Source of the DNA: a bacterium
GTDB lineage: Bacteria; Cyanobacteriota; Vampirovibrionia; Gastranaerophilales; Gastranaerophilaceae
Reading direction: 5' to 3'
DNA: 64,000 nucleotides
Assembly (NCBI GenBank): GCA_017396025.1
Contig: JAFQNF010000037.1
Coordinates: 1-64,000, forward strand
The notes beneath the pieces are model-generated. The model was not told the DNA's origin, ran no database searches, and saw nothing but the letters and a program-made list of their open reading frames with translations. This document shows positions 15,410 to 48,977 of the stretch, piece by piece. Each line of letters begins with the position of its first letter. The first letter of the stretch is position 1. A program made the translations under genes and the position numbers.

Positions 15410-15540
15410 TCAAAGATTGCTTCGCCGTCTTGAAATTTCTTTGCGCTCGTTGCTGTCGTTCTCAACACTTCGTTCGTGCTCACTTCGCACTCGCTTTCCG
15501 GATTTCATCCGTCCGAAATTTCGCTTCGCTCGCAATGACG
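15410..15540 (+). repeat. Interspersed element, tail-type copy
   Basis: This copy lacks the 5' hairpin but carries the TTGCTTCGCCGTCTTGAAATTTC module, the CGGAT-TTC-ATCCG palindrome and the terminal CGCAATGACG. The same modules recur at 17455-17645 with an extra insert of about 50 bp. Confidence 0.75.
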
Positions 15541-15558
15541 AAAAAATAATATAGAAAC

Positions 15559-15647
15559 CGTCTTTGCGAGACAACTTGTTGGCGTGGCAATCTCTTGAAA
15601 ATATAACTGCATTCCTTAAGATTGCTTCACCTACGGTTCGCAATGAC
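15559..15647 (+). repeat. Interspersed hairpin element (variant stem)
   Basis: A unit of about 90 bp from CGTCTTTGCGA to TCGCAATGAC. Its outer stem reads TTGC/GCAA where the 11429 copy has CTGC/GCAG, while the flanking GA and GTG are unchanged: a compensatory pair change. Confidence 0.8.
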
Positions 15648-15661
15648 AGATAAAAAAGTAT

Positions 15662-15747
15662 CGTCACTGCGAGAGCCTTTGGCTCGTGGCAGTCTCTTGA
15701 AAATATGACTTCGTTCTTTAAGATTGCTTCGCTTCGCTCGCAATGAC
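15662..15747 (+). repeat. Interspersed hairpin element
   Basis: An 86-bp unit, CGTCACTGCGA to TCGCAATGAC. Its first 53 bp are identical to the copy at 11429-11481. Confidence 0.85.
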
Positions 15748-15762
15748 AGATGAAAAAGTACC

Positions 15763-15888
15763 GTCACTGCGATACAAAGCGAAACACCGCAGCAGAGCGA
15801 GGATGATTGAGCCTGTATGCGGTAGCTGGGTGAAACCGTGGCAGTCTTTGTCAAAGATTGCTTCGTCGTTACACTCCTCGCAATGACG
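15763..15888 (+). repeat. Interspersed hairpin element, long-arm variant
   Basis: It has the same ends and outer stem (ACTGC 15766-15770 with GCAGT 15841-15845, flanked by GA and GTG), but the apical part is expanded to about 65 nt. Within it ACCGCA (15786-15791) can pair with TGCGGT (15818-15823). Bases 15773-15820 match 17502-17549 in inverted orientation (43 of 48). Confidence 0.75.
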
Positions 15889-15897
15889 TGAAGACAC

Positions 15898-15930
15898 AAA
15901 AAGAGCGAGAATTTCTTCTCGCTCTTTTTT
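15898..15930. terminator. Bidirectional intrinsic terminator downstream of the pilin gene
   Basis: AAAAAGAGCGAGAA / TTCTCGCTCTTTTT form a perfect 14-bp stem around a 4-nt loop, with T tracts on either strand. It ends the minus-strand pilin transcript and blocks read-through from gatB. Confidence 0.9.
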
Positions 15931-21826: not shown

Positions 21827-22150
21827 TTATGATTTACTACTTTTAGAGGGTTTTTTATTTTCTATTCCCGCAACCAACGCAGATGAAACAATTAATATTG
21901 GAGTAAAGAAAAATGCTAGATTATTTCTTAATGATTTAGCCATTGAAATTTTACCTGTTCCATAATCAAGCAATGACCATAAACCAGTTAAGGCAAGCAA
22001 AGTTGGCGCTGTTTCTTTTGCATTTTTTAAAAAGCTATCAGCATATTGTGTCTTTTTTGAGCCTATAGGCTTTTTAACTTTTTGTTTTTCTGTGGAAGAA
22101 TAGTTTTTTACTCCTGCCGTAAAGGAACAATGAGAAACCTTATTAATCAT
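21827..22150 (-). CDS. Small membrane protein with N-terminal SF.[AG] motif
   Basis: 107 residues of unknown function. The N-terminus (MINKVSHCSFTAGVKNYSS) has the [ST]F.[GA] motif seen in other hypothetical proteins here. Two hydrophobic segments follow (about 47-65, TAPTLLALTGLWSLL, and about 80-97, FFFTPILIVSSALVAG), and the C-terminus is lysine/serine-rich. GAGGAG precedes the ATG at about 9 nt. It follows ribD by 24 bp on the same strand, so it may be co-transcribed, but no functional link to riboflavin synthesis is visible. Confidence 0.6.
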   Translation of the reverse strand: MINKVSHCSFTAGVKNYSSTEKQKVKKPIGSKKTQYADSFLKNAKETAPTLLALTGLWSLLDYGTGKISMAKSLRNNLAFFFTPILIVSSALVAGIENKKPSKSSKS

Positions 22151-35879: not shown

Positions 35880-35982
35880 AAACATTACATAATATTAATG
35901 TTTGTAAAAAAAGACTAAAAATCAAACTATTTTAATAAGACAACGGGAACTATGATATAAGTGTTCTATTTTGGAGAAATCA

Positions 35983-38900
35983 GTGGATTTTATCAACCCC
36001 AATTTCGAAATTAGAAATAAAAATTCAAATTCGGATAATAAAAAAGACATAAAGAAAAAACAGGATATTTCCGCTGGAAAAAATATCCAAACAAACCTTG
36101 CAAAACCAAGTGGTAAATTATTACAAGCATATAACAAAATATCATTTAAAGGAGATACTTTAACAAACCTACGAAATAAACACCAAAATGTTTTTAGCAA
36201 ATTTAAAAATCCCAACGCTTGGAATCATTTTAGAAATACTTTATGCGCCGAATACTCAGATGCAGAAATAGATGCCCTACTTAACGAAATTTCTTCTAGA
36301 AGAATAGAAGATAGTTCTGTTTGCAATAAATTTTTATCCCTAATAAACATTAATAATGTAGAAAATATTACATATGGTGATGGCATTCAAGACCCTATCA
36401 CAAAAAGAGCAAAGACAATTAATATACCCAGAGCATTAACTCCAATAGAAGCAAAAGAGTTAATTGTAAATAGACTTACAAAAAATTCAAATATTGAAAG
36501 ATATTTTAATTTAGTTGATGATGAAGAGCTTATGCCAGACATTGCAATAAACATAATTAAGTATGACATTAATGACAAAGACAAAATCAGAATAGAAAAC
36601 TTATCAAATGAATTATTTAAAAATAATCGCAAATTGTCAAAAGATGAAATTATGACTTGCCTAGCTTTTAGCTTAGATAAGACTGAAAATATACAAGATT
36701 TTATAGATAGATTAGAAAAAGACTATAGTGGAAAGAAGCTGGATTTATTCGAAGCTGCTTTATGCACAGTTCATAATTTAGATGACGGCAAAACAGAACG
36801 ATTTTTTGAATTAAAATCAAAACAATTACCTTATAAAAAAGAAGATGGAACAGATGATATTTACACTCTATCTTCACAAGAAGCTGTTTTGTGTGCAAAA
36901 GAAGAATTAGATGAAGATGAATTAAAAAGATATGCAGAACTTAAAAATAAGCCATTTATGTATACATCTGTGAGAGACCACAATTCTTCTAAAGTGCTAA
37001 GCTCAGAGTTAATAATAAGCTACATAAAAAATAAAAATTCAAATGAAGAAATAGCACAATTAGCAAAATATGACTTCAAAGATTTTAGGCAATATGAAGA
37101 CTTCAAATCAATGCTAAAAGTTTATGGTTTTAAAGATGAAAAAAATGTGCGTGATTTGGTTAAACAAAACATATCTTATATTGCAAAATTACAAGACAAA
37201 AATGGCAAGAATATTTTTAAAGGCAAAAATGGAGAATTTATTCTTCATAAGTTTAAAATTTCACAACTTACTCCAATAAGAATATACCAATTAACTTCAT
37301 CACAAGCACAAGATTATATTAAAATTTTAACAATTTTAAAATCAATGCCTAATCGTAAACAATACGAAATTTTTCATATTGCCGCTAAATTAGCAAAACT
37401 GCAGGATGGAAATGGCAACAATATTCTAAAAGAAGAAAATGGTGAATTTAACTTTTGTGAATTTAGTTTTGAAGATATTCAAGCAATAAGTAATTATAGA
37501 TTAACTTCATCACAGGTACAAGATTATATACAAATTCGAACTATTATAGAGTCAACTCCTAGTTATCAAAAAGAACTTAGCTGGAGAGAACGTATGGGGT
37601 TTATAGGATCAAATGATCCTATAAGAAAAAAAGAATACTTGGCAGGTTGTGCTCGTGCAAAAAAAGAAGATATTTCAACTCTTGCAGCTCAATTGGCAAG
37701 ACTACAAGATGAAAATGGAAACAATATTTTCAAAAAAGAAAATGGTGAATTTAAATTTGATGAATTTAGTTTTAAAGATATTCAAGCAATAAGCAATTAT
37801 AGATTAACTTCCGCCGAACTTCAGGATTATATAAAACTTAAAAAATCTCACAATTTTAAAAGTTCCTCAATTGCCAAATTAACAAAATTACAAGATGAAA
37901 ATGGAAAAAATATTTTCAAAAAAGAAAACGGTGAATTTGATTTTGGCAACTTTAATGAAAATGATTTTGATGCAATAATGATAAATGAATTAACTGCATC
38001 GCAAGTGAAAGATTATAAACAAATCGTATCTATTTTAAAATCAATGCCTTATGAATGGTTGCGAGTTGAACTTGTTGCTGCTGAACTAGCAAAGCTACAA
38101 GATGAAAATAAAAAAAATATTTTCCAAGAAGAAAATGGTGAATTTGATTTTAATGGATTTACTTATGAAGAAATCGAAGAAATAGGGGAATATAAGTTTA
38201 CTGTATCACAGTGGCAAGATTTTAAATTTACCAGATCACAATTTCAAGACTTTAAACAAATTTTGCCCATTTTAAAATCAAAGTTTAAAAATATTGATGT
38301 TCTTAATGTTGCAGGAGGATTAGCCAAGTTTCAAGATGAAAATGAAAACAATGTTTTCAAAAAAGAAAATGGTGAATTTGATTTTGATGGATTTACCTAT
38401 GATGACCTTGAATTAATGGGTAGATATAAATTAACTGCAATACAATTGCAAGATTATAGACAAATATTACCTATTTTAAAATCAAGATCCAAGAATATGC
38501 ATGTTCCAGACCTTGCTGCAGAATTATCAAAACTACAGGATGAAAATGGTAATAATATTTTCAAAAAAGGAAATGGCGAATTTGATTTTAAAGGATTTAG
38601 TTATAGTGACCTTGAAAAAATCGTTGATAAAAATAAATTGTCATCTCAATACGACAAAAACTATAGATATCTAACGACAACATTAGGTATAGACCCAGAA
38701 AATGCAGTCTTTATAGCCAAAAATGAAGACCTAATGGCTAAGTTTAGATTAGTTGACCCAAATATATTCTGGCAAGGAGCTACGGGTGAGGACAAACAAA
38801 TATTTGATTTATTTAATTCCATTCTAGTATCTGATAATATCGATGGAACAAAGATAAAAAGAAATGATTTTTATTCTTTACCAGAAGAACATACTTTTAA

Positions 38901-39906
38901 CAATGGTACTTTAAGTTTCAATCCAACTGATTCACAAAAACAAGGATATAGTGTTGCATTACAAAAAGCTAGTAAAAACTCAACACCTATTATGATTGTT
39001 AAAAATCAAAATGGGGAAAAAGAAAATTATATTGCATATGATGGTACAATCGCGCTTTTAAGACCATTACAAGCACTTAGTAATGAACAGAAAAAAGCAC
39101 TCAATATCGATTTATCCACTCATCCTTATTTTTCTATTGAAGAAATAAATGCACTTGAAGAAGCTACAAGACACTTTATCGTCGATATTATAGAAGAAAA
39201 TGGTGAATGTATTATTTCTAAAGGCATTGATGGAATTTCAGAACCATTTATTGGTGAAACTCTTGATACTGAAGCTACAAAAAATAAATACAAAAATATT
39301 TTAAGTAGATTACATAACAATAGTAATTCACAAAATATAACTATTGAAAATATATTAAGATTAATGCCAAAAGATGCAATGATTCAAATTAAGCCATATG
39401 CAACTTCTAAATCTAGTCATGATATTTTATACTCTATTTCTGCAGAATGGGAAGACAAAGATGGTAAAGAGTGGCAATTACGTGTTCATAGCCACGATTT
39501 AAAATTTGCAGATAATGGTAAATCTTGGATTTACAGACTTGGTTACCAAGACTCAAATTCATTGGAGCCATTGTTTTATGATAATAATCAAAATGATTTT
39601 ATTGCAGGAAGTAAAAACCCACACACACATATCTTTATAAATTCTCCACAAGAATATAAAAGTAAACTAATTTCTAATCCTTATTTCCAAAAAGCAATTA
39701 GAAATATCAGTATTTCATTTAATAAAACCCAATACATCAACAAGATTGCAGATGAGCTAAATATCCACGAAACAGACAACGAACTAAAGAAAAACAAAAT
39801 TATTGAAAAATGCCAACAAAATACTGGTTACTATTACAAATACAAAAAAGTTGTTGATGGTTTATTAAATGAAAAAGGTCTACCACCGTTAGATAAAACA
39901 TCTTAA
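35983..39906 (+). CDS. Large protein of unknown function with degenerate tandem repeats
   Basis: 1307 residues from a GTG at 35983, chosen because GGAG lies 6 nt upstream. The alternative TTG at 35971 overlaps that site. There is no signal peptide or membrane segment; it is rich in Lys/Asn/Asp/Glu. ISFKG (about 49-53) is the motif shared with other proteins here. Residues from about 400 to 890 contain seven copies of L..LQDENG.NIFKKENGEF with a following [ST]..Q.qDY box, at irregular spacings of about 62-101 residues. The C-terminal 250 residues hold a differently composed domain with RVHSHDLKF and PHTHIFI. I do not recognise any family; effector, adhesin and scaffold roles are all possible. 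It is divergent from smc and no terminator is visible. Confidence 0.7.
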   Translation: MDFINPNFEIRNKNSNSDNKKDIKKKQDISAGKNIQTNLAKPSGKLLQAYNKISFKGDTLTNLRNKHQNVFSKFKNPNAWNHFRNTLCAEYSDAEIDALLNEISSRRIEDSSVCNKFLSLININNVENITYGDGIQDPITKRAKTINIPRALTPIEAKELIVNRLTKNSNIERYFNLVDDEELMPDIAINIIKYDINDKDKIRIENLSNELFKNNRKLSKDEIMTCLAFSLDKTENIQDFIDRLEKDYSGKKLDLFEAALCTVHNLDDGKTERFFELKSKQLPYKKEDGTDDIYTLSSQEAVLCAKEELDEDELKRYAELKNKPFMYTSVRDHNSSKVLSSELIISYIKNKNSNEEIAQLAKYDFKDFRQYEDFKSMLKVYGFKDEKNVRDLVKQNISYIAKLQDKNGKNIFKGKNGEFILHKFKISQLTPIRIYQLTSSQAQDYIKILTILKSMPNRKQYEIFHIAAKLAKLQDGNGNNILKEENGEFNFCEFSFEDIQAISNYRLTSSQVQDYIQIRTIIESTPSYQKELSWRERMGFIGSNDPIRKKEYLAGCARAKKEDISTLAAQLARLQDENGNNIFKKENGEFKFDEFSFKDIQAISNYRLTSAELQDYIKLKKSHNFKSSSIAKLTKLQDENGKNIFKKENGEFDFGNFNENDFDAIMINELTASQVKDYKQIVSILKSMPYEWLRVELVAAELAKLQDENKKNIFQEENGEFDFNGFTYEEIEEIGEYKFTVSQWQDFKFTRSQFQDFKQILPILKSKFKNIDVLNVAGGLAKFQDENENNVFKKENGEFDFDGFTYDDLELMGRYKLTAIQLQDYRQILPILKSRSKNMHVPDLAAELSKLQDENGNNIFKKGNGEFDFKGFSYSDLEKIVDKNKLSSQYDKNYRYLTTTLGIDPENAVFIAKNEDLMAKFRLVDPNIFWQGATGEDKQIFDLFNSILVSDNIDGTKIKRNDFYSLPEEHTFNNGTLSFNPTDSQKQGYSVALQKASKNSTPIMIVKNQNGEKENYIAYDGTIALLRPLQALSNEQKKALNIDLSTHPYFSIEEINALEEATRHFIVDIIEENGECIISKGIDGISEPFIGETLDTEATKNKYKNILSRLHNNSNSQNITIENILRLMPKDAMIQIKPYATSKSSHDILYSISAEWEDKDGKEWQLRVHSHDLKFADNGKSWIYRLGYQDSNSLEPLFYDNNQNDFIAGSKNPHTHIFINSPQEYKSKLISNPYFQKAIRNISISFNKTQYINKIADELNIHETDNELKKNKIIEKCQQNTGYYYKYKKVVDGLLNEKGLPPLDKTS
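37185..38640 (+). repeat. Seven degenerate in-frame repeats inside the 1307-residue gene
   Basis: KLQD-type cores lie near 37187, 37396, 37699, 37886, 38091, 38326 and 38530, each followed by an NIFK..NGEF block. Copies 3 and 4 are closest in sequence. The variable intervals (about 187-303 bp) suggest old duplications with later indels. Confidence 0.85.
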
Positions 39907-41851: not shown

Positions 41852-42499
41852 ATGGATTTAAAACAATATATTGAACACACATTATTAAAACAAGACGCAA
41901 CAAAAGAAGATTTAGAAAAATTATTACTAGAAGCAAAAATTAATAATTTCAAAGGTGTTTGTGTTAATGGTTGCAACGTTAAAACTGCAAAAAATTACTT
42001 GAAAGATACCCAAGTTAAAGTAGTAACAGTTGTTGGATTTCCGCTTGGTTCTTGCATCAGCGAAGTTAAAGCTTTTGAAACCACAAAAGCAATTGAAGAT
42101 GGTGCTGATGAAATAGATATGGTAATCAATGTACAATCTATAAAAGATAAAGATTTTGATTATACTCAACAAGACATTGAAACAGTAAAAAAAGCTTGTG
42201 GAAATATTCCATTAAAAGTAATTATTGAAACAGATCTTTTAACAAAAGAAGAAATTGTTAAAGCATGCGAAATAATAATAAAAGCGGGTGCCGATTTTGC
42301 AAAAACATCAACTGGTTTTGTAGAAAATGGCGTTGGAGCAAAAATTGAAGATATAGCATTGATGAATGAAACATTAAAAGGAAGTAATGTTAAAATCAAA
42401 GCTTCTGGCGGAATTAAAGACAAAGAAAAAGCAATTGCCCTTGTGAATGCTGGTGCAACAAGGCTAGGAACAAGTTCTGGCGTTGAATTAATTAAATAA
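41852..42499 (+). CDS. deoC: Deoxyribose-phosphate aldolase
   Basis: A class I aldolase cleaving 2-deoxyribose-5-phosphate to acetaldehyde and glyceraldehyde-3-phosphate; 215 residues. Landmarks are the N-terminal YIEHTLLKQDATKEDLEKLL, the phosphate/metal region VVGFPLGS, the Schiff-base lysine region KVIIETDLL...FAKTSTGF and KASGGIKD. It starts 3 bp after recO with AGG upstream. The end overlaps the convergent small membrane protein by 8 bp. It probably supports nucleoside salvage. Confidence 0.95.
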   Translation: MDLKQYIEHTLLKQDATKEDLEKLLLEAKINNFKGVCVNGCNVKTAKNYLKDTQVKVVTVVGFPLGSCISEVKAFETTKAIEDGADEIDMVINVQSIKDKDFDYTQQDIETVKKACGNIPLKVIIETDLLTKEEIVKACEIIIKAGADFAKTSTGFVENGVGAKIEDIALMNETLKGSNVKIKASGGIKDKEKAIALVNAGATRLGTSSGVELIK

Positions 42500-42878
42500 G
42501 AGTCACAGGTTGAATATCAAAAGCTGGAGGAGGAATAACCGGTGGAGCAATTATTTTCTTCGCTTGTTCTACTTTCTTTGCAGCTTGATCAATTTTGGTG
42601 TATTTAAAGCTACGTTTCATAGCAAAATACAAAATATCTGCAAATAATATTACACCGATTAAACGTTTTACAGCACTTTTAACTCTTTTTGCCTGAAGTT
42701 CTGTTTTTTCTTTTTCTGTTAAAGTTTTTTCTTTAACATCAACTGGTTTATTTTGAAAAGTATCTATAAGCATTTTCCCATTATTATTTATAACACTTTC
42801 AAGCACATTCGCCTTAAATGTTGGACGTGCTTGAGCTTTATTATAATTTTGTACAGAGGGAGAAAGAGAAACTTGCAT
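42492..42878 (-). CDS. Small membrane protein with N-terminal TFKA motif
   Basis: 128 residues of unknown function. The N-terminus is unstructured and contains RPTFKANV (about 18-25), a variant of the [ST]F.[GA] motif. A charged stretch precedes one hydrophobic segment (about 73-92, VKRLIGVILFADILYFAM), then a basic coiled segment and a Pro-rich end (APPVIPPPAF). It is the last gene of a four-gene minus-strand run beginning at 48176, 10 bp after the GH13 gene. It probably has one membrane pass. Confidence 0.6.
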   Translation of the reverse strand: MQVSLSPSVQNYNKAQARPTFKANVLESVINNNGKMLIDTFQNKPVDVKEKTLTEKEKTELQAKRVKSAVKRLIGVILFADILYFAMKRSFKYTKIDQAAKKVEQAKKIIAPPVIPPPAFDIQPVTLI

Positions 42879-42888
42879 TATAAAATAC

Positions 42889-44631
42889 CTATAATTTTTG
42901 TTTTAAAACCTCTAGACCAGATTTCTCAATATTTGGAGTATTAACTTCAAATAAGTGAATTCTGCCAGGTCCTAAGTCGGTAACGATTGCACCATCTCTA
43001 GTTTGGAACTCACTGTTTTCACCATAAGATTTGAACAAGTTAGATAATCTTTGATTTCCGCTCATACCCGGAACTTCAACCAAACCTGATTGTCTATGGT
43101 TTACATCTCTATTTGCTACAACAACTAATGTTTTACCATTTAAGTGACGAGCAAACGCAATAATTTGATTATTTTTATCTTCACCAACTTTTAATGGAAT
43201 ATAAGAACCTTTTGTTAGAATATCTTGATATTTTTTATTACTTCTAACTTCTAATGTATTTTGCATAAAGTCACCACATTCTGGATGGTCACCAATTAAT
43301 GGTCTTGAGAAGTTAAAGATATCAGGTCTTCCTCTGTGAACAGTACATTCTTCAGAGTCAGTATCTGTTTGTTTATCAGATGTTCCTTCAAAATCATATA
43401 AATAGTCATCACCTGTTTGATAACCATCAAAATAATATGGATTCAACATAGGAAGTGTTGCTTGTAGACCAGAAACTAAGTTTGTAAATGTAACACCACC
43501 ATGGTTCATAATTGAAATGTCATCGTGAGTACCAAATGAACCAATTAAAGATTTACCAGCATCTAAGTTTTGAGACATATCAATGTTTTCTTTTACATAG
43601 TTGTGTAAATCTTGAGCTTTTGTCCATTCATGGAAAATATGATATTGACCATAATAGCTATCAAAGCCAGCTCTTAAAGAATCTTCTGGTCTATCATAAT
43701 TCATGTTTAATTGTGGAGATGCATCTTCGTATGTATAGCTTTCTGCCAACCACGCAAATTCTGGATCTCTAGCACGAGAATAATTAATTAAAATATCCCA
43801 AAATTCAGTAGGTTTTGTTCTAGCTACGTCACTACGAATACCATCAACACCAACATCAATGCATAAGTCTACAAAATCTTTGTGCATTTGTAATAATGCT
43901 GGATTTAACTCACGTTTTGTTTCATCCTTCCAAGGAGAGAACATTCTAATATCGTTCCAACCTTGAGGAGTCTTTGGAGTACCATCTTTTTCAAATGCCA
44001 TCAATTCTGGTCTTGCCAAGAATAAATCATAAGATGCACAACTTGGCAAGTCTAACATAACACTGATGCCGCGTTTATGACACTCGTCACAGAACGCTTT
44101 GAATTCTTCTTTTACAGTTCTTGGATCATTTGGGTCATCTAAAGCTGGGTCTATTTTTAAGAAATCTTCTGGAGCATAAACTGAACCTGCTGTACCCATT
44201 GCATTTGTTTTACCAGGAGGGTTTACAGGTAATACGTGTAATGTATTGATGCCAAGTTTTTTCATTTCATCAAGTCTTTTAACAGCGTTGTTAAATGTAC
44301 CTTTAACATCACCTTCTCTTAAAAGCTCATTACCAACTTTGTCTTCAGCACCCCAATTTCTTATAATAACACCCATTATTGTTGCTTGGTTATTTTGAAA
44401 TCTTGTTCTTAAATTGTTTTTATAAACACCTTGTGTTTGGTTATTATTGACAGAAGAAACTTTAGCAGCAGCAACAACACCTTGATTTTGAAGGAATTGT
44501 TCTAATACATTAGAACCTAAAGACTGAATTTGTCTTGGTTGCGCTGTAGTTACAACAGCAACTGGCTCCGGTGTTTTTTGTACTGGAGTCGATGGAGCTA
44601 CTGTAAGATATCTATCAATATAATTAGCCAT
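42889..44631 (-). CDS. Glycoside hydrolase family 13 protein (alpha-amylase-like)
   Basis: 580 residues. A 75-residue Pro/Thr/Gln-rich N-terminal extension without a signal peptide precedes a GH13 (beta/alpha)8 barrel. Active-site regions are MKKLGINTLHVLPVNPP (beta 2-3), GVDGIRSDVARTKP with the nucleophile Asp, WLAESYTYED with the acid Glu, and GTHDDISI with the third acidic residue. The Glu/Asp set is intact, so activity is likely. The substrate cannot be fixed (starch/glycogen-type alpha-glucan hydrolase or transferase). Its start overlaps the end of the upstream 838-residue membrane protein by 8 bp, indicating translational coupling. Confidence 0.85.
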   Translation of the reverse strand: MANYIDRYLTVAPSTPVQKTPEPVAVVTTAQPRQIQSLGSNVLEQFLQNQGVVAAAKVSSVNNNQTQGVYKNNLRTRFQNNQATIMGVIIRNWGAEDKVGNELLREGDVKGTFNNAVKRLDEMKKLGINTLHVLPVNPPGKTNAMGTAGSVYAPEDFLKIDPALDDPNDPRTVKEEFKAFCDECHKRGISVMLDLPSCASYDLFLARPELMAFEKDGTPKTPQGWNDIRMFSPWKDETKRELNPALLQMHKDFVDLCIDVGVDGIRSDVARTKPTEFWDILINYSRARDPEFAWLAESYTYEDASPQLNMNYDRPEDSLRAGFDSYYGQYHIFHEWTKAQDLHNYVKENIDMSQNLDAGKSLIGSFGTHDDISIMNHGGVTFTNLVSGLQATLPMLNPYYFDGYQTGDDYLYDFEGTSDKQTDTDSEECTVHRGRPDIFNFSRPLIGDHPECGDFMQNTLEVRSNKKYQDILTKGSYIPLKVGEDKNNQIIAFARHLNGKTLVVVANRDVNHRQSGLVEVPGMSGNQRLSNLFKSYGENSEFQTRDGAIVTDLGPGRIHLFEVNTPNIEKSGLEVLKQKL

Positions 44632-47140
44632 TTACTTGTTTGCCTTCTTGTTCTAATTGTTTTTCAATTTTGCTTTTTCTTCCGATTGCCAAACCTGCAA
44701 CCAATGTTACAGCTGTTAATGCAATCATTGTACCACCAAAGATTTTTAACCACTTATTAGAATTATAAGTTTGTTTTGCAACATCTCGAACTAATTCACT
44801 AACCGGTTTTCCAGCAAGGTTGTTTCTTTCAATTGCATTTGCACCATTTGTTGCCGCATCTACAACACATCTTGATAATTCTGGAGTCATACCATTTTGC
44901 CAATTAGCAACCTTACTCATAAATTCAGATTTATAAGCACCAAAGCCTCTTAACATTGCACTTGCTTGTTCACCGCCACCTAAAGAAGCTTTAATTGTAG
45001 AACCAGCTTTTTCACCAAACAGTACATTCATAACTGCTTTGTATTCTTTTTCAGAAAGTTCAAAACCAGCACTCTTTAGTTTTTCAACATAATCTGTTGT
45101 TGTTGCATTTAAAACCATATCTTTGCAAGCTTTTAGTAGTTTATCTACAGCAGTACCATTGCAAGGTTTACCAGCCTTTTTCAACACAGAACTAAGTTGG
45201 AATCTTAAATCAGGAGATAATGTTTTTACAATAGATTTGTATTCTTCTTCTGCTAAATCAATTCCTACTTCTTTTAATTTTTTAATATTTTCAGTAGCTG
45301 TAGCACTTAAAGCTATACCTCTGAATGCATCAATTAATTTTTCTACAGCAGCATCATCAGCAACTTTACCCGCATCTTTTAACATTTGAGCAAGTTTAGA
45401 CTCTGCATTTGAAGAACCTATGCGTTTAAATAAATCTAAAGATTGTAATAGTCTATAGAATGATGATTGAGCACCAGCAACTCTTTCTCTTGCAGCACCA
45501 TCAACTACATTTTTTAGTGTTCCCTTAGTTGCTTCAGTTGAAACTTTTTTAGCAACTTCAGCGAAACCACCAGCGCTTAAAGCTTCACTTGCTGCACTAC
45601 TCATTTGAGCTGATTTAGCTTGAACTGTTTCAATGAACTTTTGACCTGTTTTTGCTTCATAGTCACCAATTAATTTCATTAACTTAGAAACTACTTTATT
45701 ATAAGCTTCATCATCAGCAGAGATTGCAGCTAATTTTTTAGATAATATGCTCATATCTCCATCTGCTAATGCTTTTAATTCTTTTCCATTTAATCCTAAT
45801 GATTTAATAAATCCATCACAAACTCTAGACCATTGATTTGCAATATAAGTACCAGATTTGTCACCAACTCTTGCACTTACAAATCTGTCAAGAATTTGTT
45901 TATCCGAAGTCAAACCAGATAAAGAACCATATAAGCCTTTTATTTTCTCAGTAACATCTCCAACAGTTGGTTTAGCACCAGATTTTTGTGCTTTACCAAG
46001 AGTTGCTAACAATTTACCTGATAATTTTTGTTGAGCAACTTTACCTTCAACAGCACTTTGTGAAAGCAATGTAGCAATGTTCTTTAATGAACCTTCTTGA
46101 GCAGCTAATTTAAAGGCATCTGTACCTACTACAGAAGCAATAATTGCATCATCAACTTGACCCTTTAAAGCATTTCTAACGAAGTTTTCGTCAATAGTAA
46201 CTGCTTTTGTCATGCCTGCAATTTCAGAAGCTACAGCTGATTGCATACTTGCAGAGTTTAAATTTAGTCCCATATATGATGCAATTTTGCCAGCCATCTT
46301 TTCATCAACAGTTTTATCTGCATTTTTAGCTAAGAATTTACTAAATGCTTTATCAGCCATTGATTGTTTAATTTTTTGGAAGAAACCAGTCTTACCTGTT
46401 TCTAAAGCCTTTTGAGATGTTTTCAAATCGAATGCTTCAATAGCATTGTTAATTGGTTTTTCTAATCTATTACAAGCCAAAGCACTCATTACAGGAGTTG
46501 CAATACCTGCAGTCATCATCCATAATGTATTACCTTGAGTTGCTGTCTTTTTAGCTCTTTGCTTAATAAAGCTGTCTCTATCAGGAAGATTTTCACTTAC
46601 ACCAAGTTTTTTACCCATTTTATCAAGATCTTCTCTTGAATATAAATCTGTTAAATCATATTGAGGGTCTTGATGTAACATCTTTTTACGGCCTTGAGAA
46701 TCAACATATTTTTGGTGAATATCAACACCAGTTCTCGCTTTAATAGGAGCTTGGATTGCTAATTTAGGCCACAATGCCATAGATGCAAAGAATGTACCAA
46801 AACCAACAAATTCCATTGCCTTACTTAATTTTAATGGATTTTTAGCAAATAAATATGCAGCCAAACCTAAAGAACCAAGTTTCATTGCCACATCATTTAT
46901 TCTACCTAATTCATGGTCATTTGCTTTACCTGTAGCAGCACGACCAATATTTACAACATCTTGTTTTAAATCTTTAACATATTCAATTGGAGAACCAAAA
47001 ATTCTTGATGGTAATAATTTTGCTTTATCATCAAGAGGTTTAATTTTTCCTTCAGCATTAAAAGTAAACGCAGGTAGAGGCGCCTGTTTTGCAGGTTTAA
47101 TAGGCTGATTCGCAATAATATTATTTAAAACGTTTGTCAT
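44624..47140 (-). CDS. Large membrane protein of unknown function (838 aa)
   Basis: 838 residues, alanine/lysine-rich and mostly helical. The N-terminus has AFTFNAEG (about 24-31). Hydrophobic segments cover about 90-130 and 205-222 (LWMMTAGIATPVMSALAC), with a C-terminal helix at about 800-820 (FGGTMIALTAVTLVAGLAI) and a basic tail. Between the N-terminal helices lies a loop with APIKARTGVDIHQKY...YDLTDLYS...GKKLGV that is also present in the adjacent 344-residue protein. A roughly 65-residue unit is duplicated near residues 600-720 (VEKLIDAF..IALSATATENIK / VDKLLKAC..MVLNATTTDYVE). I do not recognise a family. It is translationally coupled to the GH13 gene. Confidence 0.65.
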   Translation of the reverse strand: MTNVLNNIIANQPIKPAKQAPLPAFTFNAEGKIKPLDDKAKLLPSRIFGSPIEYVKDLKQDVVNIGRAATGKANDHELGRINDVAMKLGSLGLAAYLFAKNPLKLSKAMEFVGFGTFFASMALWPKLAIQAPIKARTGVDIHQKYVDSQGRKKMLHQDPQYDLTDLYSREDLDKMGKKLGVSENLPDRDSFIKQRAKKTATQGNTLWMMTAGIATPVMSALACNRLEKPINNAIEAFDLKTSQKALETGKTGFFQKIKQSMADKAFSKFLAKNADKTVDEKMAGKIASYMGLNLNSASMQSAVASEIAGMTKAVTIDENFVRNALKGQVDDAIIASVVGTDAFKLAAQEGSLKNIATLLSQSAVEGKVAQQKLSGKLLATLGKAQKSGAKPTVGDVTEKIKGLYGSLSGLTSDKQILDRFVSARVGDKSGTYIANQWSRVCDGFIKSLGLNGKELKALADGDMSILSKKLAAISADDEAYNKVVSKLMKLIGDYEAKTGQKFIETVQAKSAQMSSAASEALSAGGFAEVAKKVSTEATKGTLKNVVDGAARERVAGAQSSFYRLLQSLDLFKRIGSSNAESKLAQMLKDAGKVADDAAVEKLIDAFRGIALSATATENIKKLKEVGIDLAEEEYKSIVKTLSPDLRFQLSSVLKKAGKPCNGTAVDKLLKACKDMVLNATTTDYVEKLKSAGFELSEKEYKAVMNVLFGEKAGSTIKASLGGGEQASAMLRGFGAYKSEFMSKVANWQNGMTPELSRCVVDAATNGANAIERNNLAGKPVSELVRDVAKQTYNSNKWLKIFGGTMIALTAVTLVAGLAIGRKSKIEKQLEQEGKQVNG

Positions 47141-47141
47141 C

Positions 47142-48176
47142 CTAACATACTACCTTTTCTTTACTATTATCAATCAACGAAGTTGAAGCTTGCGTTTTTG
47201 ACCCCTTATCTTTATTAAAGTCAAAAAGAGTCATGAAATTGCCTAACAAAGTAACCCCAACAGCAGCACCTAATAGGGCTCTACCCGCTATTGTCGCACC
47301 TTTGCTCTCATTTTTAACAAATTGTTTACAACTTTCAACAAATTTTGAACCGAAGTCTTTCACAAAACCTTTACCAAGTTTTAAACTTTCCCAAGGCTTT
47401 TGCATTGCAACACCAACGGCTGTTCCAGCCCATAAATATGATGCTAATGTTGAAAATACTTTTGTTTGAACCAATTTTTCTTTAATTTTTGGTTTAACTT
47501 TTTGATCGGCATGCTCTAAATCACCATCATCCATGCCCATTTTCTTAGCAACTTTTTCAAAATATGCATTTCTTTCTGGACCAAAATTTTCATTTCCGTA
47601 TAATAAATCCCAACGTGGGAAATCTACACTTTCAAACACTTTGTGATATTCATGTGTAACTAAGTTATCTTTATTACCTTCTTCTGGCAATTCATAAACA
47701 ACTTTTTTATATGGCATGTTAACATCAATGCCATGCTTCCATTTAACAGGAAGTTCTATTAGTTTTTTAGAAGCTGTTTTAGCTAATCCATAAGCCAAAA
47801 CACCAAGTCCCATTTTTTTACCTAGTTTAGATGCATTTTTTGCAGCTGGGGTATCAAAAAATTTAGATGCTGCATTAAACACGCCTATCATCATTGCACT
47901 ACCTACAACATAAGGAACACTGCCCATTGTTAGGAATTCATAGAAATTAGCATTTTTACTGCCAGATAAACCTTTTTTGGGATATTTTGTACAAGCATTA
48001 ACAAATTTATCTGCTTGAATTTTCAAGTTAGTGGAAATTGGATGCTTTTTCATTTCCGCAACCATAATTGCGTCATGGTTTTCACACTTACTTCTTTTTT
48101 CTTGCTTTTCAGCACCAAAAGACGGTGTTACCGCCCTGTTACTAATGTTTTGTTGTACCCCTACGTTATAGACCAT
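47142..48176 (-). CDS. Membrane protein related to its 838-residue neighbour (344 aa)
   Basis: 344 residues of unknown function. The N-terminus has TPSFGAEK (about 18-25). Hydrophobic segments sit near 85-105 (VPYVVGSAMMIGVF), 127-140, 245-262 (LASYLWAGTAVGVAM) and 300-318. The loop KWKHGIDVNMPYKK...RWDLLYGNENF...AKKMGMDDGD matches the neighbouring protein's loop in order (P[VI]K..[HT]G[ID], DL.LY, KK[ML]G[MV]), so the two are probably paralogues. GAGGAACA precedes the ATG. It is the first gene of the run leading to the GH13 enzyme. Confidence 0.65.
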   Translation of the reverse strand: MVYNVGVQQNISNRAVTPSFGAEKQEKRSKCENHDAIMVAEMKKHPISTNLKIQADKFVNACTKYPKKGLSGSKNANFYEFLTMGSVPYVVGSAMMIGVFNAASKFFDTPAAKNASKLGKKMGLGVLAYGLAKTASKKLIELPVKWKHGIDVNMPYKKVVYELPEEGNKDNLVTHEYHKVFESVDFPRWDLLYGNENFGPERNAYFEKVAKKMGMDDGDLEHADQKVKPKIKEKLVQTKVFSTLASYLWAGTAVGVAMQKPWESLKLGKGFVKDFGSKFVESCKQFVKNESKGATIAGRALLGAAVGVTLLGNFMTLFDFNKDKGSKTQASTSLIDNSKEKVVC

Positions 48177-48224: not shown

Positions 48225-48243
48225 TTATTGCCACATGTTTGGC
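48225..48243. promoter_or_regulatory. Palindrome upstream of the membrane protein/GH13 operon
   Basis: TGCCA-CATGTT-TGGCA, extended by A/T on both sides, is a 16-18 bp dyad lying 50-65 bp before the operon's first ATG. Its size and symmetry suit a dimeric repressor or activator site. A TATAAT on the minus strand (48274-48279) could be the promoter just upstream of it. Confidence 0.45.
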
Positions 48244-48424
48244 ATGTTTTTTAAATTTTTTACATATCTTAATATTATACTCTAGAAATACTTCTTATCT
48301 TTTTTCTTGCTAAAAACAAAGTAAAATTATACAATATCACTTGTAGATAACTATTTAGTAATAAAACCTTTTATTCCTATCGCAAATTATTTACAAGCAT
48401 TACCCAAATTAAGGAGAAAACTAA

Positions 48425-48764: not shown

Positions 48765-48977
48765 TTATGCAATAGCAGAAAAAGAACAACCACCAGAAGA
48801 AGAACCACAAGATGAGCCACAAGATGAACTTGCAACACTGCCAGCTGTCTCGCCACCTAAGCCAGATACACCAACGCTTCTAGCTACACTACCAGCTGTT
48901 TCTCCACCTCGTGACACAGAAAATACAGTACTATTTCCGCCAAATGCTGCGTTACTAAATAATGAAACATATTCCAT
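48765..48977 (-). CDS. Ser/Gly/Cys-rich mini-protein, possible RiPP-type precursor
   Basis: 70 residues. The first half (MEYVSLFSNAAFGGNSTVFS) resembles a leader. The second contains a duplicated GGETAGSVA block and ends SSSCGSSCGSSSGGCSFSAI. There are three cysteines, and Ser plus Gly make up nearly half of the residues, a composition typical of thiazole/oxazole, lanthionine or sactipeptide precursors. AGGAG sits 8 nt before the ATG, and a near-consensus promoter lies further upstream, so it is very likely a real, expressed gene. No modification enzyme or exporter is encoded nearby, so a simple Cys-rich protein is the alternative. Confidence 0.7.
   Translation of the reverse strand: MEYVSLFSNAAFGGNSTVFSVSRGGETAGSVARSVGVSGLGGETAGSVASSSCGSSCGSSSGGCSFSAIA

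Follow-up and report, generated by a model that had tools for sequence, protein, structure and literature searches.

A conserved three-gene cassette of two unnamed membrane protein families and a GH13 enzyme in Gastranaerophilales

Four closely packed minus-strand genes, coding for two large membrane proteins, a GH13 enzyme and a small membrane protein, raise the question whether they form one conserved system and what such a system would do. Here we analyzed the window, a stretch of 64,000 nucleotides (contig JAFQNF010000037.1, positions 1 to 64,000), which belongs to a genome of 1,594,308 bases in 52 contigs with a completeness of 70%, most of whose relatives are listed as Candidatus Gastranaerophilales. 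The open reading frames were re-derived, and the four frames, their coordinates and their spacing as given in an earlier note on this DNA were correct (Table 1), the ORF listing showing a gap of 1 bp between A and B, an overlap of 8 bp between B and C and a gap of 10 bp between C and the fourth gene. Genes were taken to begin at the earliest ATG, GTG or TTG that left the frame open, and true starts may be later. Beyond A, positions 48765-48977 of the minus strand hold a 70-aa ORF rich in Gly, Ser and Cys, with GGETAGSVA repeats and a Cys-rich tail, which has relatives near the cassette in loci L036 (57.9% identity) and L037 (54.7%) and could be a small peptide precursor. At 15410-15899 of the same strand two short overlapping ORFs carry recurring SLRAKR-like stretches, which suggests a repeated intergenic element and not genes.

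Table 1. Coordinates of the cassette genes and of the other features discussed in the text (positions without a locus name are those of the window).
Feature	Position	Strand	Basis
Gene A, membrane protein of 344 aa, opens the cassette	47142..48176	-	ORF
Gene B, 838-aa membrane protein, A-like at residues ~67-238	44624..47140	-	ORF
Gene C, 580-aa GH13 enzyme without signal peptide	42889..44631	-	ORF, PF00128
Fourth gene, 128-aa small membrane protein, lineage-limited	42492..42878	-	ORF
Palindrome TGCCA-N6-TGGCA, divergent gap upstream of A	48229..48244	.	sequence scan
C paralogue	L195:8605-10161	-	34-38% identity
C paralogue	L196:8283-9905	-	34-38% identity
C paralogue	L197:8557-10128	-	34-38% identity
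TPR protein	L052:2315-4624		
TPR protein	L166:10740-13079		
TPR protein	L167:1105-3513		
TPR protein	L170:6258-8624		
TPR protein	L171:10635-12992		
D proteins with N-terminal F-x-G	L156:5345, L157:3990, L158:5092, L055:7689 and eight more		
Proteins with Asn/Ser/Lys-rich start	L179:2151, L183:3584, L183:6377, L177:19369, L196:3351; window 35971-39906, 21827-22150		

The conservation of the gene order was followed in two locus collections, which may share species so that their counts overlap, and whose loci were chosen for holding A or C, so that the synteny counts show adjacency and not presence. A scan with an alignment of A returned 278 stretches encoding a relative, and 80 loci were kept. 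The order A-B-C on a single strand was found in 69 of the 69 Gastranaerophilales loci long enough to tell, the contig ending before the next gene could be complete in the remaining 11; the A-B gap is 1 bp in 54 of the 69 and the B-C overlap 8 bp in 34. The second collection kept the order in 36 of 36 loci, comprising 19/19 from 19 genera and 17/17 more diverged ones, two of the latter with B and C fused. Across the 19 genera only A, B and C recur and the flanking genes vary, so general synteny does not account for the order. A-B-C is a deeply conserved three-gene cassette, an operon beyond chance. The earlier note had expected all four genes to be co-conserved, which holds for these three but not for the fourth, since 33 of 68 loci have a homologue of the 128-aa protein after C, all of them in close relatives (one further locus is cut), and its place in a conserved system was not borne out.

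The palindrome upstream of A had been taken to suggest dedicated control, and this too found no support. Among 79 upstream regions that of the window alone has its exact arms, the other 78 being without them (the scan considered exact arms only and two too-short regions were dropped), and as the arms are not kept upstream of other cassettes it was rejected as a control site. Promoter-like sites stood at chance level (24 against 24.0 expected) and terminator-like sites numbered 6 against 2.9 expected (sd 1.5), the palindrome being among them on the plus strand.

To survey the distribution of the cassette, 240 genomes of the class were scanned with profiles. Of these, 156 had a match to A, namely 143 of 143 genomes of the window's family (f1), one of another family of the same order (f2), nine of a distant family (f4) and three of a further family (f10), these per-family counts being derived by subtraction from the listing. 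Strong matches to C (E 7.5e-86 or better) were found in 143, 1, 9 and 4 genomes of the same families respectively, and 20 further matches were weak (best 4.9e-19), fitting general GH13 similarity, one of these being the sole C match of the f4 genome G244 (completeness 78%). A second GH13 protein, here called D, lies on a separate contig of the window's genome (1335 aa; L055, 7689-11696; PF00128 50.8 bits) and is strongly matched in 141/143 f1, 1 f2, 9 f4 and 3 f10 genomes, its 10 other matches being weak (2.2e-7 at best); it was unmatched in G045 and G052, both f1 genomes 99% complete. Strong matches to A, C and D are thus confined to the same four families. When 194 genomes were drawn from the phylum, A was matched in 85, all of the window's family, and 109 were without a match, of which 20 are itemised and 89 are not. 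The system, which the earlier note thought might be new to this lineage, is not recent, as A and C were matched in all 143 drawn genomes of the window's family, which points to a core function missed by annotation. The cassette, with two unnamed membrane families and an intact GH13 enzyme, is real and widespread, and a literature search by title or abstract opening, with subscription journals mostly outside its scope, returned no description of it.

The [ST]F.[GA] motif is present in three of the four window proteins, as the earlier note had observed, but as a shared tag it fails, being rare in orthologues (A 6/59, B 1/56, C 3/104). Within residues 5-60 it was observed 10 times against 2.8 expected in 84 genes of the window's genome, which are those of the window and of two other stretches, operon genes included. 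It was not over-represented in samples of two other genomes (8 against 7.0 and 10 against 6.5 expected), nor in 162 gene families compared with shuffles (4 against 5.3), and it was rejected as a tag for want of enrichment in other genomes and for its rarity in orthologues. The looser F[KST][GA] gave 10 against 5.2 in the same genes of the window's genome, and in the other two samples 19 (11.9 expected) and 10 (14.7 expected). The Phe of A's motif is invariant in 59 aligned relatives, and F-x-[GA] near the start was not seen in several of 17 more diverged A proteins. In D, F-x-G stands near the N-terminus in 12 of 12 proteins although the surrounding leaders vary, where it may just belong to a folded domain. 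As a separate observation, several unknown proteins begin with an Asn/Ser/Lys-rich stretch followed by F-[KSTQ]-[GA], the enrichment of the simple pattern being weak.

A and B are related to each other, as had been supposed, the hhalign comparison giving a probability of 91.9 and E 6.9e-7 over 167 columns, and the B profile likewise picks up the six f4 proteins matching A (1.1e-4 to 9.8e-11). With a hydrophobic threshold of 1.2 three segments each were found in the window proteins, with peaks at residues 90-91, 249 and 309 of A and 120, 214 and 810 of B; the family means keep 91 and 309 in A and 120, 214 and 809 in B, peak 249 being extra in window A. The f4 proteins were counted at 1.1, and at this lower threshold each of three A proteins has four peaks, while among the four separate f4 B proteins L159 has three. 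The 128-aa protein has one hydrophobic segment, at 78, and the reading of all three as membrane proteins agrees with these segments. Predicted models of A and B (mean pLDDT 78.8 and 82.2) have in their common part paired helices, a small region of strands and one long helix, and B would have in addition a large, mainly helical, variable middle part and, by the model and hydrophobicity, a final hydrophobic helix near 809.

Both proteins are of unknown family, as the earlier note had stated. There was no supported Pfam match for window A and B or for 20 members of each family (B scores 18.8 bits for PF04286, cut-off 33.8), no supported NCBIfam match for window A and B and no supported PDB sequence match for either, the best for B having E 0.057; the NCBIfam and PADLOC runs covered the window proteins and a few others. 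Foldseek searches of the PDB gave no match at E 0.001 or better for either model. The top Z of VIA-align was 6.0 over 97 residues for A and 8.7 over 199 residues for B, the latter to a designed helical protein, neither being above common helical arrangements, and from such fold matches of predicted models neither a relationship nor novelty of the fold follows. The enzyme family of the cassette is known and its membrane partners are not.

C belongs to GH13 by Pfam, scoring 25.9 bits for PF00128 with a cut-off of 22. The GH13 pattern consists of an Arg and the Asp nucleophile in region II, the Glu acid/base in region III and a His-Asp pair in region IV, and all 106 sequences of C keep the candidate catalytic residues R266, D268, E297, H369 and D370, which bears out an apparently active enzyme as far as sequence can tell; from what is known of the family we take D268 to be the nucleophile and E297 the acid/base, with D370 beside them. 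Region I of GH13 is D-x-x-x-N-H, from which some GH13 enzymes depart. In window C it reads D194-LPS-C198-A-S200, with Asn-His replaced by Cys-Ala, D194 being invariant (106/106) and Cys198 nearly so (104/106). The claim that C has no signal peptide also stood, on a simple Kyte-Doolittle measure, as over the N-terminal 60 residues the highest value of an 11-residue stretch is 1.91 in 104 separate C proteins against 2.53-2.60 in three C paralogues.

The altered region I could also be read as a sign that C is no enzyme at all but a partner of the membrane proteins with a structural or regulatory role. GH13-like folds have such a role elsewhere, in the SLC3-type heavy chains of amino-acid transporters, which are non-enzymatic partners that have lost the catalytic residues; C differs from them exactly here, its five residues being kept in every sequence across very diverged hosts, and we hold this explanation to be very improbable. 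With PADLOC, C matched a GlgB-like model (5.5e-7) and the fourth gene matched BrxC weakly (0.0011), nothing more, and a defence system was rejected.

The link of C to the membrane comes mainly from gene fusions. B and C form one open frame in L156 (genus g44, 1030 aa) and in L158 (genus g61, 986 aa), two genera of f4, a distant family of the same class, and are separate genes in the other four f4 loci. The main match to the B profile covers residues 81-245 in L156 and 52-223 in L158, and four hydrophobic peaks stand before the enzyme, the last of the B part lying at 502 and 459, just ahead of the C-profile match, which begins at 523 and 485. C is thus probably a B-tethered enzyme working at the membrane, these fusions being the main evidence, and they turn the idea of a GH13 enzyme at the membrane into a testable claim. 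If confirmed, it would show how glucan enzymes are organised on a bacterial membrane and suggest a role for two large families of hypothetical proteins.

A fused and adjacent enzyme beside two homologous multi-segment membrane proteins also recalls a heteromeric permease, and it could be argued that A and B form a transporter or channel in which C, with D, trims a sugar entering or leaving. We regard this as quite unlikely, as the 20 members each of A and B show no supported Pfam transporter family and the window proteins none in NCBIfam, nothing beyond A, B and C recurs in the 19 loci, and the hydrophobic segments are few beside a very large variable part in B.

Which sugar chemistry the cassette serves was approached through the genes that accompany it. 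D adjoins the cassette in five of six f4 loci, divergent from A, and follows directly after C in 6 of 110 loci of the window's order, a scan with the window-genome D as query at E 1e-30 in which diverged copies may be missed; in most loci, the window's genome included, D is unlinked to the cassette. Twelve aligned D proteins measure 1266-1493 aa, with a long stretch separating the GH13 pieces, and their invariant residues include R795, D797, E845 and D953, which are read as putative catalytic residues. Paralogues of C, 34-38% identical to it, have strongly hydrophobic, signal-peptide-like N-termini in three genomes (Table 1), and most f1 genomes hold two or more matches to C, the incomplete window genome one.

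Enzymes of glucan metabolism were searched in 12 genomes, hand-chosen mostly for few contigs, where GT5 and GH57 each turned up in 11 and GH77 in all 12. G192, a genome with a B-C fusion and 94% completeness, has D and GH77 and is alone among the 12 in having no match to GT5 and GH57. GH77 has five matches on four contigs in the window's genome, two to three in each of nine f1 relatives and one in each of two f4 genomes. The phosphorylase family PF00343 is above its cut-off in 12/12, at full length only in G006, the matches elsewhere covering about 160-190 positions within frames of 543-612 aa. A replacement of a missing GH13 branching enzyme by C or D was set aside, GH57 being present in 11 of the 12. 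Gut Melainabacteria, including Gastranaerophilales, are found in animals and in humans on several continents (PMC3787301), and starch or glycogen use is inferred in published accounts (PMC3787301, PMC4040986).

The neighbours of the cassette point partly elsewhere. Of 117 loci with A, a sample that has overlapping loci, 42 have BacA/UppP as the gene immediately upstream of A and on its strand (e.g. L041:2130-4832), and in many of them PTPS, HAD and SIS-CBS genes stand further upstream, the HAD gene being KdsC-like. This makes envelope-glycan synthesis the strongest rival, in which the complex builds or trims an envelope glycan or glycolipid rather than a storage glucan, with C and D passing glucosyl or maltosyl units on to an acceptor, lipid-linked or at the surface, that A and B present. 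The membrane tethering by the fusions would suit such a role, and with the signal-peptide-like N-terminus of the C paralogue the same chemistry may serve outside. It is nevertheless an unlikely explanation, though one to be taken seriously, because the BacA/UppP link is limited to part of the family in an overlapping sample, other neighbours being found elsewhere, and because GT5, GH57 and GH77 suit ordinary alpha-glucan metabolism. In 5 of the 117 loci a TPR protein of 769-802 aa lies divergently upstream of A (Table 1), with an AAA match in three of the five, and in all five D also adjoins the cassette; a MalT-like regulator was rejected, TPR_MalT being below cut-off and no Pfam DNA-binding domain being found in the five proteins.

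The explanation which we prefer, though tentatively and at somewhat less than an even chance, is an inner-membrane complex with a B-held cytosolic GH13 enzyme acting on alpha-glucan. A and B would be the membrane part of the enzyme complex and C would be held at the cytosolic face by B; the fusions and the absent signal peptides argue for the complex and its cytosolic side, the absence of signal peptides being the single line that bears on which side of the membrane C occupies. C would be a transglycosylase or hydrolase of an alpha-1,4-glucan or malto-oligosaccharide, working by the GH13 retaining double displacement (D268, E297, D370), perhaps favouring transfer over plain hydrolysis since its nearest relative is a glycosyltransferase, and its -1 subsite should be unusual because Asn-His of region I is replaced by Cys-Ala. 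D probably works on the same glucan pool, as its nearly shared distribution with A and C suggests; its unlinked position in most loci and the absence of a match in G045 and G052 count against this. The membrane-associated alpha-glucan system of the earlier note keeps its membrane part through the two fusions, while we infer the alpha-glucan part from GH13 membership and from GT5, GH57 and GH77 in most of the 12 genomes. The lack of GT5 and GH57 matches in the fusion genome G192 slightly lowers our confidence in this explanation. GH13 also has sucrose- and trehalose-acting enzymes, and the region I replacement could mean a different substrate for C; BacA/UppP upstream would fit an envelope-glycan role equally. 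It is also conceivable, although distinctly improbable, that the cassette is an unrecognised membrane machine making or exporting alpha-glucan, with A and B as its conduit in the inner membrane, C and D building or trimming the chain inside and a secreted C paralogue processing it outside. If true, this machine would characterise Gastranaerophilales together with two further families of the class.

Among known systems several structures of GlgE (GH13_3), whose region I is altered too, match the C profile (best 1.2e-14), but Pfam GLGE_C scores 16.6 in C against a cut-off of 27. GlgE is described with GlgB as its partner in a published account (PMC11046441). C is apart from GlgB as well, with 15.6 bits for NF003811 against an equivalog cut-off of 741. 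The cyclomaltodextrinase, neopullulanase and maltogenic amylase group gives weaker PDB matches to C and the best ones to D (1sma, 2.1e-30), from which D differs by its length and by GH13 pieces lying far apart. In the PDB the C profile comes closest in sequence to the maltodextrin glycosyltransferase (maltosyltransferase) of T. maritima (1gju/1gjw; 5.9e-22), followed by two alpha-amylases (1.1e-20 and 1.1e-17). It is a distant relation, and we know of no membrane partner for the T. maritima enzyme; the stretch of 1gju aligned to C is likewise without the canonical Asn-His of region I, so the change seen in C is no bar to its being a GH13 enzyme.
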